NCBI GenBank assembly: GCA_030447045.1
Contig: JAUJMB010000058.1
Span: forward strand, 1-8,670
DNA length: 8,670 bases
Direction: 5' to 3'
From: Rubrobacteraceae bacterium
GTDB taxonomy: Bacteria > Actinomycetota > Rubrobacteria > Rubrobacterales > Rubrobacteraceae
Positions 1 through 8,057 of the stretch are shown here, piece by piece; positions within the stretch are counted from its first letter, which is position 1; each line of letters starts with the position of its first letter. The position numbers and the translations under genes were made by a program. Under the pieces are notes generated by a model. That model was not told the DNA's origin. It saw only the letters and a list, made by a program, of their open reading frames with translations, and searched no databases.

Positions 1-312
1 TAGTTCGTGATTGCGGACCAGCACGGTGGTCTTCCCTGGTCCCTGGAAGGCGGCCATGCCATCATGTTCACCCGGCACCGGCGCGCCGTTGGACAACGTA
101 GCGTCCTGCCCGGAGATGATGCGGTACTGAAACCCTTTCGGAAGATCTACTAGCCCGCCGGGATCTGGTCCCAGATCCCCGTAGCCCGGCTTCTTCGCCG
201 TTCTTGCCAGTGCTCCTTGGCCGGTCGCCAGGAGCGTCGCCGCCCCGAGTCCGCCAATGGCGAGAAAGGTCCTCCGGCTTATGCGACGGCCATCATTGTA
301 GGTGCCGTCCAA
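1..312 (-). CDS. PhoX/DUF839-family phosphatase, N-terminal part (runs off left edge)
   Basis: The frame translates to 104 residues and is cut by the window edge. The N-terminus carries a textbook Tat signal: ISRRTFL at residues 11-17, then a hydrophobic stretch (18-30) and a likely ALA cleavage site at 34-36. The mature part contains GYGDLGPDPGG (43-53), LPKGFQYRIIS (57-67), GEHDGMAAF (81-89) and VRNHEL (99-104). These match the start of the PhoX/DUF839 family, which are calcium- and iron-dependent alkaline phosphatases exported folded by Tat. The start is TTG at 312, chosen because GGAGG lies five bases upstream. The frame is open further back to a TGA near 435 but has no ATG or GTG there, only another TTG at 357. 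Family assignment is from recognised motifs; substrate and activity are not shown here. A frameshift upstream of the true start cannot be excluded. Confidence 0.8.
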   Translation of the reverse strand, partial: MDGTYNDGRRISRRTFLAIGGLGAATLLATGQGALARTAKKPGYGDLGPDPGGLVDLPKGFQYRIISGQDATLSNGAPVPGEHDGMAAFQGPGKTTVLVRNHEL

Positions 313-365
313 GTTCTCCTCCGTATCCGGGCAGGGGTTAGCGACTTTGAGGGCCAAGTGGAGAG

Positions 366-874: not shown

Positions 875-1921
875 TCAGCCGCATGGGTTCCTGCAACAGC
901 GCCTGATGCCGATGGGACATCCTACAAGCGCGCACGCCAGGCATGCGCCGCATGCCCACTTCGCCGGGGTCGCGATGCAAGCGGCGCACGTAGCGCCGCA
1001 GCCTACGCAGGTTGAGGCCACGGTGGCAACGCATCCCCATCTCCATCTGCAGCACCCGCACCCGCGTCCAAGAGACTTAGACGAGCTGGCCGCGTCGACA
1101 ACGGCGCTGCGTCGCCTGCCGTTGACGCTTGTGGCCTCTTTCCAGATCTCCTCGCCCGTCTCGTAACCGAAGAGGGTCGCCTCTGAAGTGTAGTTTCCGA
1201 TTGGACGATCGGCCGCATAATGGACGAGAACCTTTCCGTCGGGCGTGCTCCAGGAGACGGCGGTCAAAATCGTGCCGTCCCCGAGCTTGTGGCGAACCGC
1301 GAAGGCATTCTCGTCTGGGAGGCGCCGGCCCTTCCAGATGTTCCGAACGTCGGAGCTTGCCGCAGCCGAACGCAACGCTTCTCGTCGAGTTGCGCCGTGC
1401 AAGCGCTCTTGAGACCGAAAACGTACCCTCTCGAGCGGATGTGTCCATCCCCTGAGTGACGCCTCTTTGGCGAAAGCTTCTGGCCCAGACAAGATAGAAG
1501 CGGCAATCAGGACGCCGCCCACGCCCTTCAAGAAGCCAGCACGCGATAAGCGGCCGGCCAGCTTCGTGGCGATGCCGGTCTCTGGTATGGGCACGGCGTC
1601 GAGTTCACCCAACACCTGCATTACTCGCCATGTCGTGGCAGTCCCAAGGATGCGGGCCATGTGTGCCGCCATCCTCCAGCCGGTCCACGCCTGAACCTTG
1701 CCACCGCCGACCTCAACCAGGGTTGGCGCCCAGGGGGCGTCCTCTCCGAAAAATTCCCTGCGCCAGTGTCCCATCATGGGATCACTCAGGCTGCGGATCT
1801 CCAGCTTGTCGCCGACCGCTTCCTCGATACTTTTCGCCAGACCACTGCACGTCATGCACCCGGCGTCGAAGCCGAGCACCAGCCTGCGTGCGTCGCCGGT
1901 CTGGTTGTTCGTCCCTTCCAC
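875..1921 (-). CDS. CxxC thioredoxin-like protein with Tat-like segment and 15-cysteine C-terminal tail
   Basis: Encodes 348 residues from GTG 1921, with GGAGAGGAG about eight bases upstream. Three parts are visible. Residues 13-100 look like a thioredoxin-fold domain of the DCC/DUF393 kind, with the redox pair C22xxC25 in FDAGCMTC and a later WAPTLVEV (64-71). Residues 120-151 form a hydrophobic helix preceded by LSRAGFLKG, close to a Tat motif but with one arginine replaced, and followed by an AFA signal-peptidase-like site (149-151). Residues 152-280 contain a predicted beta-rich region of unknown type. The last ~60 residues hold 15 cysteines in short-spaced pairs, for example GCGCC (287-291) and ACGACLAC (323-330). 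This pattern resembles halocin-C8-like peptide bacteriocin domains, which is an inference from spacing, not an established match. A self-processed or exported disulfide-rich peptide is one reading; a metal-binding tail is another. It is followed by a strong terminator. Confidence 0.75.
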   Translation of the reverse strand: MEGTNNQTGDARRLVLGFDAGCMTCSGLAKSIEEAVGDKLEIRSLSDPMMGHWRREFFGEDAPWAPTLVEVGGGKVQAWTGWRMAAHMARILGTATTWRVMQVLGELDAVPIPETGIATKLAGRLSRAGFLKGVGGVLIAASILSGPEAFAKEASLRGWTHPLERVRFRSQERLHGATRREALRSAAASSDVRNIWKGRRLPDENAFAVRHKLGDGTILTAVSWSTPDGKVLVHYAADRPIGNYTSEATLFGYETGEEIWKEATSVNGRRRSAVVDAASSSKSLGRGCGCCRWRWGCVATVASTCVGCGATCAACIATPAKWACGACLACALVGCPIGIRRCCRNPCG

Positions 1922-2817: not shown

Positions 2818-3786
2818 CTACGCCACCGCGCTCTGCTGTGCTGGTCCCCCGTCTTCGCGGTGCCCGGTGAGGCGGAGGTAGGCGAGGGTCCAGTAGGAGT
2901 GGAAGAACGCGCCGGTGGCGCCGGAGGCGGCGAGGAGGATGGGCAGCAGGATCACGCCGGCCACGATGCCCGTTACGACGGCGGCCGTGGACATCTCCGC
3001 GAAGCCCAGGAGTATGGTCGGGAGGAAGAGGACGAGGCCGACGATGCCGAGCGCCAGCACGACGGCTATGGTGACCCCGATCCCGAGCAGCAAATTTATG
3101 AGCCAGAGGAGCAGGCTCCTGCCGACGTCGCGGCGGAAGATCCCGTACCCGCCGCCGAAGGACGCGAAGATGCCGGCCCGGCGAACCACGATCTCCCTCA
3201 GGGCGTACTGCCCGACGATGGAGAGGGGGATGAAGACCACGATCAGGGCCACGAGGCCGAGGAGTCCCGCCAGCACCGCGACGATCACCCTGGCGGCGAC
3301 GGACTGCGTGGCGGCGAAGGTCACCCCCACCAGCAGCGCGAGGGGCACCCCGATGGCGACGAGCAGCCCGAGCGTTATGAGGAAGTACACGACGTAGTAC
3401 CCGAGCACGCGCCAGACGTTCCCGAGACCGGCCCGCCAGCCCGACCCGAACCGGCGCCCCTCGCCCCGGTCTATGGCGGCCACGTTCTCGGCCAGGGCGC
3501 CCTGCGAGATCAGGGTCAGCGCTATGAACAACAGCACGATCAGGCCGATCGCGACAAAGAGCGCGACGAGCAGTGCCACGTTGTCGAAGAGACCGGGACC
3601 TACCTGCGCCGCGAGGCCCGGGGTGCCCGACTGCTCGGAGCCACCGCCGTCGAAGTTGCCGACCCCGGAAGGGACGTTGCCGCCGAAGCTCGAGCCCACG
3701 CCCCCGGCGAAGAAGCCGAAGAACCAGAGGTACTTGTTGCGCCAGGAGACCCTGAACGCGTCCCTTATGAGGTCGCCGTAGTTCAC
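2818..3786 (-). CDS. Polytopic integral membrane protein, unknown function
   Basis: Encodes 322 residues from GTG 3786, whose last bases overlap the TGA of the upstream ATP-grasp gene (GTGA), implying translational coupling. The frame stays open upstream through the ATP-grasp gene, but that extension is antisense-quality, arginine-rich sequence and is rejected. The N-terminus NYGDLIRDAFRVSWRNKYLW (2-21) is characteristic of a widespread family of multi-helix proteins in Actinobacteria and Chloroflexota. It is followed by WFFGFF and a glycine/serine-rich loop (28-60). Hydrophobic segments lie at about 69-95, 128-157, 167-193, 225-260 (probably two helices) and 266-290. The C-terminus is hydrophilic. 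The fold recalls glycerophosphodiesterase-associated membrane domains, but no catalytic residues are seen. Its coupling to an ATP-grasp gene suggests a joint envelope or transport role, which is inference. Confidence 0.85.
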   Translation of the reverse strand: MNYGDLIRDAFRVSWRNKYLWFFGFFAGGVGSSFGGNVPSGVGNFDGGGSEQSGTPGLAAQVGPGLFDNVALLVALFVAIGLIVLLFIALTLISQGALAENVAAIDRGEGRRFGSGWRAGLGNVWRVLGYYVVYFLITLGLLVAIGVPLALLVGVTFAATQSVAARVIVAVLAGLLGLVALIVVFIPLSIVGQYALREIVVRRAGIFASFGGGYGIFRRDVGRSLLLWLINLLLGIGVTIAVVLALGIVGLVLFLPTILLGFAEMSTAAVVTGIVAGVILLPILLAASGATGAFFHSYWTLAYLRLTGHREDGGPAQQSAVA

Positions 3787-5201
3787 CGCCCGAGCACCCA
3801 GGTATCCTTCATCTTTCCCCCGCTGGAGATGTTGACCACGTGCTTGCCGGGGGCCGCCACCCGGCTCAAAGACCCCGGCACGGCCTCGACCACGCCGGGG
3901 TCCTCGGCGTCCGGCGCCAGCACGAGCACCCTGTAATCCGCGTAGGAGTCGCGCAGGAGGAAATCGTCGCCGGCTTCGCCCGTCTCGCAGAGGACGTGGG
4001 TGGAGAAGTCTATGGTCTCCTGGGCGACGTACTCGGCCGGGTTCTCCTCCACCATCCGGCGGAACTTCTCCACGCCTTCTCTGGTCTCCTCCGGCCCTAT
4101 CATTACCTCCTTGCCGCCGTAGCCGCCCCGGCTCTTGACGACGAGCTCCGCGAAGTGGTCCATGACGTACCGGCGGTCCTCCTCCACCGCGAGCGACCAG
4201 GTGCGGGCGTTCTCTATCAGGGGCTCCTCGCCCAGGTAACGGCGGACCATCTCGGGGACGAAGACGCCTACGCCCTTGTCGTCTATCACCTCGGAGTTCG
4301 GGGCGAAGAGGACGTGGACGTTGCCCGTGAGGTGGCACTCCAGAAGCCCTGGCACCTCGGCATAGAGCGTGTCCTCGTCCACGCGCTCATAGATTACGTC
4401 TATGCGGCGGCCGGTCGGACGGTGGACGAGGAAACCCCCGTCGATCTCCAACTCCTTCGTCTCGGCCAGGATGGCACCCATCTCGTGGGCGTAGATGTGG
4501 TGGTCGAGGTAGAACTGGTCGGCCGGGCCGCTGGAGACGACGGCGAGCGTGGCCTCCGGTCCCTTTGGGGAGGCCGCCCGCAGCGAGTCCCCGAGCCGGG
4601 CGAGCCAGCCGTCGAGGGGGTAGACAGGGAGGCCCGTGTAGGTCTTGGGGAAGAAGATCTCCTCACCCATCCTCCGCCGCCGGGTCATGGCGGCGAGGCC
4701 GACGGGCATCTTGGCGTTCTCTTCTATTACGAGGTACTCCCAGCCGCCGGTCTGGCCCTCTCTCCTGCTCTCGACGGCGACGACGTCGAAGGCGATCTGG
4801 CGCACCGGCACCGGCCCGAAGCGGTTGGGCGTCCCCGTGTCGTAGAGGATGCTGCTCTCGAGTATCTCCTGGGGGACGATCTCCTCCCTGCCCGCCTCCA
4901 GGCGGCGGAGAAACTCGTTTATGGCCCGCAGGCGTTGCTCGAGGCCACTCCGGAGGCGGGTCCAGTCCGAGGCGGGGACGATGCGCGGGATCCAGTCCGT
5001 CGGGTGCGTCTTGTCCCCTTCCAGCACCCCGAAGGCGTGCTGCTCTTCGAGCAGGGCCTCGTGGGCGCGGCGCCGCTTCTCCTGCCACCGCGCGGGGCCC
5101 GTTCCCTCGAGCTCCTCGAAGAGGCCATCGTAGACCGGGCGCGGCCGTCCGTCCGGCCCGAAGACCTCGTTGGTGCCCGGTAGCGCGCGCTCGAACCTCA
5201 C
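3783..5201 (-). CDS. Circularly permuted ATP-grasp protein (COG2308, DUF404/DUF407 type)
   Basis: Encodes 472 residues, full length for the family. These cytoplasmic enzymes are thought to join a carboxylate to an amine using ATP, making peptide-like bonds; exact substrates are mostly unknown. Visible family signatures are IDVIYERVDED (267-277), the run from NSEVIDDKGVGVFVPEMVRR (302-321) into YLGEEPLIEN (322-331), the phosphate-binding VVKSRGGYGGKEVM (354-367), VAQETIDF (392-399) and the C-terminal VPGSLSRVA (441-449) with VNISSGGKMKDTWVL (456-470), which corresponds to the usual VNSSQGGGSKDTWVL. In most genomes such genes sit next to an alpha-E (DUF403) gene and a transglutaminase; neither is in this window. 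Instead it heads an operon with a membrane protein (4-base overlap) and an SDR. The GTG at 5201 has no Shine-Dalgarno sequence and lies nine bases after a TATAAT box, so the mRNA is probably leaderless. Confidence 0.9.
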   Translation of the reverse strand: MRFERALPGTNEVFGPDGRPRPVYDGLFEELEGTGPARWQEKRRRAHEALLEEQHAFGVLEGDKTHPTDWIPRIVPASDWTRLRSGLEQRLRAINEFLRRLEAGREEIVPQEILESSILYDTGTPNRFGPVPVRQIAFDVVAVESRREGQTGGWEYLVIEENAKMPVGLAAMTRRRRMGEEIFFPKTYTGLPVYPLDGWLARLGDSLRAASPKGPEATLAVVSSGPADQFYLDHHIYAHEMGAILAETKELEIDGGFLVHRPTGRRIDVIYERVDEDTLYAEVPGLLECHLTGNVHVLFAPNSEVIDDKGVGVFVPEMVRRYLGEEPLIENARTWSLAVEEDRRYVMDHFAELVVKSRGGYGGKEVMIGPEETREGVEKFRRMVEENPAEYVAQETIDFSTHVLCETGEAGDDFLLRDSYADYRVLVLAPDAEDPGVVEAVPGSLSRVAAPGKHVVNISSGGKMKDTWVLGR

Positions 5202-5667: not shown

Positions 5668-5696
5668 TAGCCAGCATGCCGGCAAGCTCCTATACT
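5668..5696 (+). promoter_or_regulatory. Promoter of DnaD-DnaC-annealing operon (leaderless)
   Basis: TAGCCA (5668-5673, four of six matches to TTGACA), a 17-base spacer and TATACT (5691-5696) form a good housekeeping-type promoter. The ATG at 5706 follows the -10 after nine bases, the same distance as for the ATP-grasp GTG, and no properly spaced Shine-Dalgarno sequence exists. This favours a leaderless mRNA and decides the start at 5706 over the ATG at 5676, which lies inside the promoter. Confidence 0.65.
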
Positions 5697-5705
5697 GCGG
5701 GCAGG

Positions 5706-6500
5706 ATGGAGAGGCTCAGGCTCACACCGCCGGGTGAGGGGCGGGCGCGGGGAGGCCGCGCCCGGCTGTACGTGCGCTGGATGCCCCACCTGGGCGCCGA
5801 GGCCGTCGCCCTCTACGAGCTGCTACGCATCCTGCCGGACGTCGGGCAAGACGCCGTCGAGGTCGAGGAACTGGCGGAGCTACTCCGCTCCACCCCGGAG
5901 GACGTCGAGGCGGCCCTCGAGGCCCTGGTCGGGGCCGGGTTCGTCGCCGAGCGGGATGGGTGGTTGGAGGTGGCCGAGCACCCGCCCTCGGGTGGGGCCC
6001 GCCCGAAATCTGGCCGGGTCGAGCCTCCCCGCGAGGTCGTCCACGATGCCGTCCGCGAGAAGGCCGCGGCGCCGGTCCGGGACGTGCAGGTGATCCGGGC
6101 GGAGCCCGAGGGGGTCTCGGCCGACGACTACTTCCGGTTTATGGGGACCCTGCCGGCGCCGCACATCCTGGAGTTCCTCAACGGGTACTGCGGGCGGGAC
6201 GGGCTCACGCCGGACGCGGTCAGGGAGGCGCTCAGGATCGCCAGCGAGCGCGACGCCAGGCGCGTCGGCTACGTCAGGAGCATCCTGGAGCGTTGGGTGG
6301 AGCGGGGCGTGAAGACCGTCGAGGACGTCGAGCGCTTCGAGCAGGACCGCAAGCTCAGGCTCGTCGAGGAGAGCGGGGCCGTGAAGGGCGGGGTGTTGAA
6401 GATCAGGGAAGGCGGAGGGGGGGTGAGGGGTGGAGCGGATAGACAATCTGCTGCCAGGCGCCGGGAAGGCTACGAGTGGCTCTTCGGGGAAGAGGGTTAA
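5706..6500 (+). CDS. DnaD-like replication initiation / helicase-loading protein
   Basis: Encodes 264 residues. The first ~90 residues look like a winged helix-turn-helix domain (helices around 30-43 and 53-77, wing ending near WLEVAE, 86-91). A polar linker (92-135) leads to a DnaD/DnaB_2-type domain at about 140-215. It ends with YVRSILERW (189-197), the hallmark YxxxILxxW motif of DnaD proteins, followed by GVKTVEDVERFE (201-212), also typical. In Firmicutes and their phages DnaD remodels DNA at origins and helps load the replicative helicase. A short C-terminal motif, GYEWLFGEE (255-263), follows a glycine-rich linker. It is the first gene of a three-gene operon and overlaps the next gene by 71 bases. 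Close involvement with helicase loading is supported by the DnaC-like neighbour. Whether it is host or phage-derived is unclear. Confidence 0.85.
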   Translation: MERLRLTPPGEGRARGGRARLYVRWMPHLGAEAVALYELLRILPDVGQDAVEVEELAELLRSTPEDVEAALEALVGAGFVAERDGWLEVAEHPPSGGARPKSGRVEPPREVVHDAVREKAAAPVRDVQVIRAEPEGVSADDYFRFMGTLPAPHILEFLNGYCGRDGLTPDAVREALRIASERDARRVGYVRSILERWVERGVKTVEDVERFEQDRKLRLVEESGAVKGGVLKIREGGGGVRGGADRQSAARRREGYEWLFGEEG

Positions 6501-7293
6501 GCCCGCCGAGATACTCAGGCTGGACGACCAGATCTGCGCGCACTGCGGCCGCGAGCTGACCGCGGAGTGGGTCGAGTTCCCCCCCGCCCTCCAGAAGAAG
6601 TACGGCAAGGGCGGCGAGTGGTACTACCACCCCTGCACCCCCGAGTGCGAGGCGAAGAACGACCGCCGCGAGTGGGAGCTGATGCGCCGCAACGCCCGCG
6701 TCGGCGCCCTCAGGGAGAAGAGCGGACTCAGTAAGCGCATGAAGGGCTACACCCTCACAAGCTTCAAGCCCTACGTCAGCCCCGCCGCCGCCAGGGCCAT
6801 GGAGAAGGTCCAGGAGTACCTCAAGGACTGGGAGGAGAACCGGAGCACCGGCCACGGCCTCTACTTTGTCGGCGACGTCGGGACCGGAAAGACGCACCTC
6901 GCGGTTGCCGTCATGAACGAGCTCATAGCGCGCAAGCGGGTGCCGGCGCTTTTCGTCACCGTGCCCGAGCTTCTGGACAACATGCGCGGGACCTACAACA
7001 ACCCCGGGCGGGACATCGACGAGTGGATGGACTCCGTCAAGAACGCGGACCTGCTCCTCCTCGACGACCTCGGGGCCGAGCGGGCCAACGACTGGGTAAG
7101 GGAGCGCATCTTCGTCATCGTCAACCACCGCTACAGGGAGGAGCTGCCCACCATCTTCACCTCCAACACCGGGCCCAAGGACCTCGCCGCCCAGCTGGGC
7201 GAGAGGACGGCCAGCAGGATCATCTCGATGTGCGACTGGATCTCCCTCGAAGGCGAGGACTACCGCGAGGCCGAAGTGAGGCGCGGCCTGTGA
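6430..7293 (+). CDS. DnaC/IstB-like AAA+ helicase loader with zinc-finger-like N-terminus
   Basis: Encodes 287 residues from GTG 6430, the only start in frame before codon 85, with GGAGG 11 bases upstream. Residues 32-75 contain CAHC (36-39) and HPCTPEC (67-73), a probable four-cysteine zinc site. The AAA+ core follows: TLTSFKPY (108-115, the linker typical of DnaC/DnaI), Walker A GDVGTGKTH (148-156), Walker B LLLLDDLGAE (208-217) with D212/D213, sensor-1 TSN (244-246) and an arginine-finger box GERTASRI (257-264). Proteins of this type bind ATP and place the replicative helicase on single-stranded DNA; the IstB transposition helper shares the fold, but no IstA or insertion-sequence ends are present. 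It overlaps the DnaD-like gene by 71 bases and ends in a GTGA overlap with a possible start of the next gene. Confidence 0.9.
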   Translation: MERIDNLLPGAGKATSGSSGKRVKPAEILRLDDQICAHCGRELTAEWVEFPPALQKKYGKGGEWYYHPCTPECEAKNDRREWELMRRNARVGALREKSGLSKRMKGYTLTSFKPYVSPAAARAMEKVQEYLKDWEENRSTGHGLYFVGDVGTGKTHLAVAVMNELIARKRVPALFVTVPELLDNMRGTYNNPGRDIDEWMDSVKNADLLLLDDLGAERANDWVRERIFVIVNHRYREELPTIFTSNTGPKDLAAQLGERTASRIISMCDWISLEGEDYREAEVRRGL

Positions 7294-7304
7294 GGGACGA
7301 GTTC

Positions 7305-8057
7305 ATGATTACTAGGCAGGGCAAACAGTACGTCCTGTTCCAGGGCCTCTTGGACGAGGCCCACACCCAGGGCCTGCGCGGCATAGACACCGAGCTCCTC
7401 CAGGTCCCAAGCCCCGAGAACGGCAACGTCGCCATAGTGAAGGCCGTCTGCGAGATGGAGGACGGGCGGAAGTTCTCCGGCATAGGCGACGCCTCCCCGG
7501 ACAACGTCGGGCGGAACATAGCCCCGCACGTCATCCGCATGGCCGAGACCCGCGCCAAGGCCAGAGCCCTGCGCGACGCGGTCAACGTCGGCGCCACCGC
7601 CCTTGAGGAGCTCTCCGAGGGCGACGACGCCCCGCCCGCGGGCACAAGCTACGGCAGGCCCTCCCAGCGCGGCTCCGATGGGGCCAGGTCCGGGGCCAGG
7701 CCGACGCCGATCCGGGGCGCCGGCCCCCGCCAGGACGGCCGCGGGGGCGAAGGCCAGGGCGAGCCACAGAGGGCCCGGCGGAGCCCGCCCGCCGCGGAGC
7801 CAGAGGATGCGGCCGGCAGCCCGAACGGCCAGGCCGAAGAGGAGGCACCTGCCCCGGCGGCCCGCAAAGGGGGGAGCAGGGCGGGGGCCAAGGCGCGCAA
7901 GAGCCAGGTGGACCTGCTCAGAACTTTGGCCGTCGAGTGGGCCGGCGACGGCGGCGTCGAGCGTCTGGAGGGCCGCGTCGGCAAGCCGCTCACCGACCTG
8001 ACCCGCGCGGAGGCCGACGAGTGGATAGACCGCCTGACCCCCGACGGCCGCGAGTAA
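7305..8057 (+). CDS. Putative single-strand annealing / recombination protein
   Basis: Encodes 250 residues from ATG 7305 (AGGGA seven bases upstream). A GTG at 7290, overlapping the previous stop as GTGA, would add five residues and is nearly as likely. The N-domain (1-105) is compact and conserved-looking: GKQYVLFQGLLDEAH (6-20), a two-strand section MEDGRKFSGIGDAS (51-64) and MAETRAKARALRDAVNVG (79-96). The last resembles the helical signature of Rad52/ERF-type annealing proteins and of uncharacterised firmicute proteins beside helicase loaders. Residues 105-198 are a low-complexity linker rich in Pro, Ala, Gly and Arg. Residues 199-250 form a small helical domain with VGKPLTDLTRAEADEWIDRL (225-244), a module often found at the end of phage recombination proteins. 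The DnaD and DnaC neighbours support a DNA replication or repair role. Function is inferred, not shown. Confidence 0.7.
   Translation: MITRQGKQYVLFQGLLDEAHTQGLRGIDTELLQVPSPENGNVAIVKAVCEMEDGRKFSGIGDASPDNVGRNIAPHVIRMAETRAKARALRDAVNVGATALEELSEGDDAPPAGTSYGRPSQRGSDGARSGARPTPIRGAGPRQDGRGGEGQGEPQRARRSPPAAEPEDAAGSPNGQAEEEAPAPAARKGGSRAGAKARKSQVDLLRTLAVEWAGDGGVERLEGRVGKPLTDLTRAEADEWIDRLTPDGRE

Follow-up and report, generated by a model that had tools for sequence, protein, structure and literature searches.

Introduction

Most known polymorphic toxins with exchangeable C-termini are large delivery proteins, and CdiA is far longer than the precursors considered here. Such toxins, including the contact-dependent growth inhibition (CDI) and Rhs systems, join a constant N-terminal part to abruptly diverging C-terminal parts; for CDI, PMC4725963 describes orphan modules made of a C-terminal part and its partner, a pattern matched in a relative's genome described below. 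Halocin C8-like precursors from haloarchaeal plasmids have a pro-region and a C-terminal cysteine-rich part and, according to a review, ProC8 is exported by the twin-arginine translocation (Tat) system and processed into HalI and a 76-aa peptide (PMC11509114). The disulfide-bonded bacteriocin sublancin 168 of Bacillus subtilis is, according to PMC6391423, matured by a dedicated thiol-disulfide oxidoreductase, BdbB, and a terminator divides its immunity gene from the precursor operon. Here we describe a gene at positions 875–1921, minus strand, of an 8,670-nucleotide stretch of DNA (hereafter the window) from contig JAUJMB010000058.1 of a Rubrobacteraceae bacterium, whose product joins a thioredoxin-like domain, a Tat-like helix, and a tail with 15 cysteines.

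In our analysis, the system would work like halocin or fulvocin production and diversify like polymorphic toxins. It differs from CDI and Rhs systems in that its precursors are small and bacteriocin-like, with a constant domain resembling thioredoxin; from sublancin, with its separate oxidoreductase, glycosylated peptide, and SunT export, in carrying the redox domain in the same chain; and from halocin C8, of which the three precursors compared have no thioredoxin-like N-terminal domain. We consider it probable, at roughly two chances in three (0.68), that the gene belongs to an undescribed family of bacteriocin precursors that is modular in the manner of polymorphic toxins, in which membrane proteins confer immunity and a redox domain acts on the tail ahead of export. 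A survey of an open-access collection, judged from search listings, turned up no publication recognizable as describing this architecture.

Protein architecture and constraint on the tail

The open reading frame (ORF) read from 1921 to 875 has a GTG start and encodes a 348-aa protein; homologues with near-equal start and end, and ratios of nonsynonymous to synonymous substitution rates (dN/dS) below 1 in every part, support 875–1921 as the whole gene of the putative precursor. An initial annotation made from the sequence alone had proposed a redox domain, a helix, and a cysteine-rich end in one frame, and this three-part anatomy is borne out. To it we add the strand (minus), a middle domain, the 81-aa membrane gene that lies downstream, and the recurrence of the N-terminal module with other tails. 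Residues 1–105 (1607–1921) form the thioredoxin-like constant domain, delimited by alignments, models, and PDB comparisons, with the CxxC motif C22-M-T-C25 (1847–1858) and an invariant P66-T67 pair. Residues 124–157 (1451–1552) make up the Tat-like signal helix, RLSRAGFLKGVGGVLIAASILSG, with its AFA site, as judged from the sequence, motif counts, sub-threshold TAT models on relatives, and TatC in related genomes. A predicted middle alpha/beta domain follows (residues 158–280; 1082–1450), with a predicted local distance difference test score (pLDDT) of about 82–96 across residues 161–270; clustering indicates that it is common to members of the C-terminal cluster of the window protein. The remaining residues, 281–348 (878–1081), are the peptide tail, with a net charge of +8. 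Of 17 cysteines in the protein, two are C22 and C25 and fifteen lie at 288–347, with none in between; the tail of ~60 residues with 15 cysteines that had been proposed is thus present, within the final 61 residues. The probability that at least 15 of 17 would fall inside the final 68 residues by chance is 6e-10 (hypergeometric test). The protein has no match in either Pfam or NCBIfam at E ≤ 1.

The first database search, in which 8000 candidates were scored, returned 247 homologues at E ≤ 1e-3, with identity down to about 34%; among the best 120 listed, informative source names are few (Rubrobacter, Rubrobacteraceae, or unspecified Actinomycetota). Full-length homologues carrying the window-type tail are 54–87% identical. 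Alignment A5 comprises the window protein and 54 matches chosen as full-length among these 120 (55 rows), and C22, C25, C288, C290, C297, C305, C308, C330, C335, and C343 are cysteine in all 55. Elsewhere in the tail, C327 and C342 are cysteine in 54/55 rows and C312 and C347 in 50/55, and the least conserved are C324 (21/55), C315 (17/55), and C291 (16/55). The P66-T67 pair and R127/F130 of the helix are invariant or nearly so.

By codon, dN/dS between the window gene and that of the relative L004 is 0.22 in the thioredoxin domain, 0.41 in the linker and helix, 0.22 in the middle domain, and 0.07 in the tail; the corresponding values for L004 and L005 are 0.22, 0.29, 0.17, and 0.12, and synonymous divergence in the tail is saturated in the window–L005 and window–L039 pairs. 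The tail is the most constrained part of the protein, a pattern that a read-through end would not show; it is therefore real coding sequence. Homologues ending before residue 280, named beforehand in the initial annotation as the sign of a frameshift read-through, are not what the comparison shows. The number of cysteines in the window-type tail is odd, with 13, 14, 16, or 18 in other subtypes, and a free or intermolecular thiol is possible given this count.

Reuse of the N-terminal module and exchange of tails

Relatives of the window protein have the first ~150 residues in common, and the remainder differs. In Rubrobacteraceae and some other actinomycetes, this N-terminal module carries at least seven C-terminal types that are mutually unalignable by BLASTP, including several cysteine-rich peptides, a fulvocin C-related type, a class-II-like type, and an M23 peptidase. 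BLASTP clustering of the 27 module proteins from fetched loci gave a single N-terminal cluster and nine C-terminal clusters, two of which are one truncated and one frame-broken copy. A larger set of 170 proteins (loci and database matches) left 159 once seven without the helix motif and four with short C-terminal parts were set aside; these fall into nine C-terminal clusters, seven with at least two members, plus the singleton P0145 and the apparent chimera P0079. This set includes duplicates between loci and database matches and is biased to the window's own type (133/159). The other clusters hold seven proteins that are class-II-like by eye, seven of another cysteine type, four of fulvocin type, two of the L040 type, two of the L044 type (from two near-identical genomes), two M23 peptidases, P0145, and the artefact-like P0079; the M23 assignment reflects a Pfam match of the L049 C-terminal part at 7.8e-10. 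At least two C-terminal cysteines are found in some member of each cluster, and low-cysteine parts occur on the module (two to four cysteines in L044/L046 and M23 members, three in some class-II-like members). The pattern by which polymorphic toxins are recognized, one constant N-terminal part on C-terminal parts that do not align with each other, is present in this family.

C-terminal parts with three or six cysteines occur in L009, L054, P0062, P0130, P0138, P0144, and P0147; L009 and P0062 end in a glycine/hydrophobic stretch resembling class II bacteriocins by eye.

The module profile (A2) matches 17/396 Actinomycetota genomes, one of these matches (G333) being weak and unconfirmed, and 15/39 genomes of the class to which G004 belongs. 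On plasmids, 5/10 matched Streptomyces records are annotated "bacteriocin fulvocin C-related" beneath the match. Among the listed database matches that bear a source's name, all are called "hypothetical protein" or carry no function, except for P0027 (235 aa, on a 3435-base contig), in which the reading frame of the N-terminal module continues into part of a PhoX phosphatase. PhoX sits two genes downstream in the window (1–357), and either a deletion that fused the two or a chimeric assembly could account for P0027.

Exchange of the C-terminal part at a single locus is visible in one pair of genomes. L043 and L045 are 97.8% identical over 9.1 kb upstream and 97.9% identical over 7.8 kb beyond the tail, and the match stops within the module gene, close to where the thioredoxin domain ends (about window-equivalent residue 103). 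The cassettes between these flanks differ: L043 has an 18-cysteine tail, and L045 has another tail, apparently frame-broken, together with an extra gene. The broken-looking tail of L045 (8871–9446, minus strand) is followed by this gene, which is alpha/beta hydrolase-like by eye, and in L040 a similar gene follows the module gene at 2989–4032.

Duplication is evident in G020, where 20 kb contain five module matches, including a fragment of 54 aa. Two of its genes (b and d) are 94% identical in the DNA of the thioredoxin domain, and their C-termini belong to different clusters. Directly behind the window-type gene of this genome and two small membrane genes lies a 695-bp, 88% identical duplicate of the tail and a small membrane gene, lacking the N-terminal module (locus L039). 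The same window-type gene adjoins relatives (83% DNA identity) of the membrane genes found downstream of L044-type tails, and no L044-type tail is present there. Two further hallmarks of polymorphic toxins, exchange of the C-terminal part at one locus and an orphan C-terminal part, are thus each represented by one case (L043/L045 and L039).

Small membrane genes downstream of the tail

On the strand of the tail gene and 177 bp beyond its end, 452–697 encodes an 81-aa protein in which at least two segments are hydrophobic; it is a candidate cognate immunity protein. A search for conserved neighbors, suggested in the initial annotation, found its relatives directly after same-tail genes in L004 (81% identity), L005 (64%), and L039 (41%, two genes). 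The gene is itself constrained, with dN/dS of 0.22 and 0.17. Different small membrane proteins accompany the other tail types, and those related by BLASTP group by tail type.

Across Rubrobacter loci, 12/18 module genes are followed by a small ORF that has two or more predicted transmembrane (TM) segments and begins no more than 300 bp downstream, versus 12/234 other genes (Fisher p = 3.6e-10, with related genes counted as independent). The six module genes without such an ORF are L052 (followed by a 74-aa ORF with one TM segment), L040 (its module gene at 2989), L044 (followed by an ORF with one TM segment), L045, and the pair of M23 members. The gene caller of the script had dropped a further four module genes, of 22 in all; on individual inspection, an ORF of this kind follows L053 and L043, one with a single TM segment follows L046, and none follows L001. 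No small membrane ORF was seen adjoining fulvocin-type or M23 members in the loci inspected. By analogy with bacteriocin loci, the small membrane proteins would be immunity proteins.

Relationship to curated families

The initial annotation had likened the tail to halocin C8 precursors by cysteine spacing. As a claim of membership, this resemblance is not supported: none of nine genomes of relatives and none of 396 Actinomycetota genomes has a match to TIGR04449 above the cut-off (24 bits), which the control Haloferax volcanii exceeds, and profile–profile comparison (hhalign) with a halocin C8-like profile, A7, of only three sequences returns probabilities of 0.8% for A6 and 2.7% for A5. The likeness is one of organization: two of the three aligned halocin precursors have a Tat-type start, and a 68-aa protein with hydrophobic segments is encoded directly downstream in two of four fetched loci (L061, L062). 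Of the other two, L063 has the downstream protein under the same accession as in L061, but behind an insertion sequence element, and in L060 a different, 230-aa ORF follows.

The fulvocin C-related model NF033852 (cut-off 35 bits) does not match the window protein at E ≤ 1. It does match, at 91–103 bits, the C-terminal parts of four Streptomyces-like relatives (Streptomyces, Kibdelosporangium, Actinocatenispora), and all four scanned members carry the CxxC module and a Tat-like helix in front (the frame of L002 being taken from upstream of its annotated start), whereas the model, of 150 positions, covers the C-terminal part only. All eight plasmid records retrieved by the fulvocin-type C-terminal part were also retrieved by the window protein, through the module.

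The N-terminal domain had been proposed as thioredoxin/DCC-like with C22xxC25, a description to which comparisons of both structure and sequence lend support. Most top Foldseek matches of its predicted structure are thioredoxins, glutaredoxins, and protein disulfide isomerase (PDI) domains, and PDB comparisons recover mostly these folds and glutathione S-transferases, with weak scores. The module shares a DxxCxxC start, which we take to be the motif of the family, with DCC1-like thiol-disulfide oxidoreductases (PF04134), and differs from them in that every match is below the curated cut-off of 27.8 bits: none of eight genomes exceeds it (best 20.9 bits), module genes are the top, sub-threshold matches in three of the eight (G071, G107, G020), L030 scores 19.4 bits, and the window protein is unmatched at E ≤ 1. 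The window protein falls short of the curated cut-offs for halocin C8, fulvocin, and DCC and is accordingly assigned to none of these families.

Proposed mechanism and rival explanations

In the mechanism that we infer, the constant thioredoxin-fold CxxC domain would remain on the cytoplasmic side of the export helix. The helix would be followed by the middle domain, as a pro-domain, and then by an antibacterial C-terminal peptide that can be exchanged and that in this protein is cationic with 15 cysteines. The tethered redox domain would form or shuffle disulfides of the tail, or keep its cysteines tractable, and the tail would be exported by a Tat or Tat-like route. Outside, signal peptidase and a further protease would release the tail, and the downstream 81-aa membrane protein would protect the producer. 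Tails would be swapped through recombination close to where the constant domain ends, as in polymorphic toxins.

Positive residues ahead of the helix suggest that the CxxC domain is inside and the tail outside. The Tat-like helix of the initial annotation stands in part: LSRAGFLKG and AFA are present at residues 125–151, the latter as an AxA-type site after a modestly hydrophobic helix, but the motif reads SRAGFLK and lacks the second arginine. The best 19-residue hydropathy of the helix is 1.55 (residues 128–146), and a tail segment scores higher (1.71 at 298–316). A script count found the arginine pair in 3/163 motif-bearing members, with L013 mis-assigned and L030 outside the counted set; the pair is present in L030, L013, L002, and L043. 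TAT-signal models match relatives below cut-offs only, and TatC was found in 8/8 related genomes. The arginine pairs and sub-threshold matches in relatives suggest Tat ancestry.

PMC6350376 describes Tat as exporting folded proteins, in which disulfides can form beforehand in the cytoplasm given an oxidase and an isomerase. We favor a tethered oxidoreductase that would act on the tail before export because Tat exports folded proteins, cytoplasmic disulfides are feasible, and sublancin offers a precedent; this step nonetheless has only about one chance in three. Similarly tentative is its general form, a self-oxidizing family in which the thioredoxin-fold domain would install disulfides in cis, in the cytoplasm, in any fused cysteine-bearing peptide for folded export. 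If so, a single module for secretion and maturation could accept toxins as diverse as halocin-like, fulvocin-like, and class-II-like peptides and an M23 lysin, through recombination where the domains meet.

Nearly as likely as oxidation in cis before export is an overlapping variant in which the bacteriocin family is the same and the N-terminal domain acts as a reductase or holdase, so that the cysteines of the tail stay reduced during Sec export and form disulfides once outside. Cytoplasmic thioredoxin-fold proteins usually reduce, and the absence of the arginine pair from nearly all of the 163 motif-bearing members also fits this variant, although the four relatives that have the pair and the sub-threshold Tat-model matches speak for a Tat route instead.

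The bacteriocin-like or metal-binding system originally envisaged has fared unevenly, in that tail swapping and adjacent membrane genes strengthen the bacteriocin-like idea and leave metal binding an improbable rival. Under the latter, a metallothionein-like or Fe-S-like tail would work with the CxxC domain in thiol homeostasis as a metal- or cofactor-binding membrane redox protein, without toxicity. The redox domain in the same chain and the many CxxC pairs of the tail, including CGACLACALVGCP, which we take to be near ferredoxin-type spacing, are compatible with this role; however, C324 of that run is cysteine in only 21/55 rows, the same N-terminal domain carries C-terminal parts with only two to four cysteines, and the allelic swap, the orphan tail, and membrane genes linked to tail type would be unexpected for housekeeping metal binding.

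Just as unlikely is a polymorphic surface or kin-recognition protein, whose tails would be anchored for contact-dependent signaling or recognition and not released. An inferred N-in membrane helix after a cytoplasmic domain, differing C-termini at one locus, and the paralogue array would all suit such a protein, but the AxA-type site after the helix of the window protein does not, and the fulvocin C-related tails and M23 peptidase of its relatives both point to antibacterial action. A frameshift or assembly artefact fusing a redox protein to an unrelated cysteine-rich frame can be dismissed, since, although chimeric or frame-broken copies do exist (P0027, P0079, L045), same-tail homologues are full-length at 54–87% identity and tail dN/dS is 0.07.

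The favored reading, a modular bacteriocin precursor family, would extend polymorphic-toxin logic to small peptide precursors in actinobacteria, Rubrobacter among them, the constant part being a redox domain. If it is correct, bacteriocins that have escaped annotation could be sought through the module, which would also serve as a natural model of how disulfide-rich peptides can be made in the cytoplasm and then exported. The label "fulvocin C-related" in Streptomyces likewise gains a context.

Other features of the locus and its relatives

Between the tail and membrane genes, at 813–842, lies a perfect 12-bp GC-rich inverted repeat, CCCCGGGAGCCA-6-TGGCTCCCGGGG, in a region with a fold z-score of −2.2. 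In L004 it shows one two-sided compensatory change and one lost pair, and it is absent from L005. It is not among the matches of a scan for T-run terminators; a terminator or attenuator between toxin and immunity expression is possible.

On plasmid 3 of Rubrobacter radiotolerans (L001, 3552–5980), genes for an S8 (subtilase) protease and a Big_5 Ig-like protein lie directly upstream of the module gene, and the subtilase could process the tail. In L039 (11700–18915), the module gene is accompanied by a 185-aa membrane protein and a series of ABC-transporter and SpoIIM-family genes, the transporter and SpoIIM genes preceding it; we presume that this arrangement resembles some bacteriocin immunity/export operons. 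Within the window itself, 5676–8057 contains DnaD-like and DnaC-like helicase-loader genes, as well as one encoding a protein that matches only a phage family of unknown function, and is possibly a replication module derived from a phage or plasmid.
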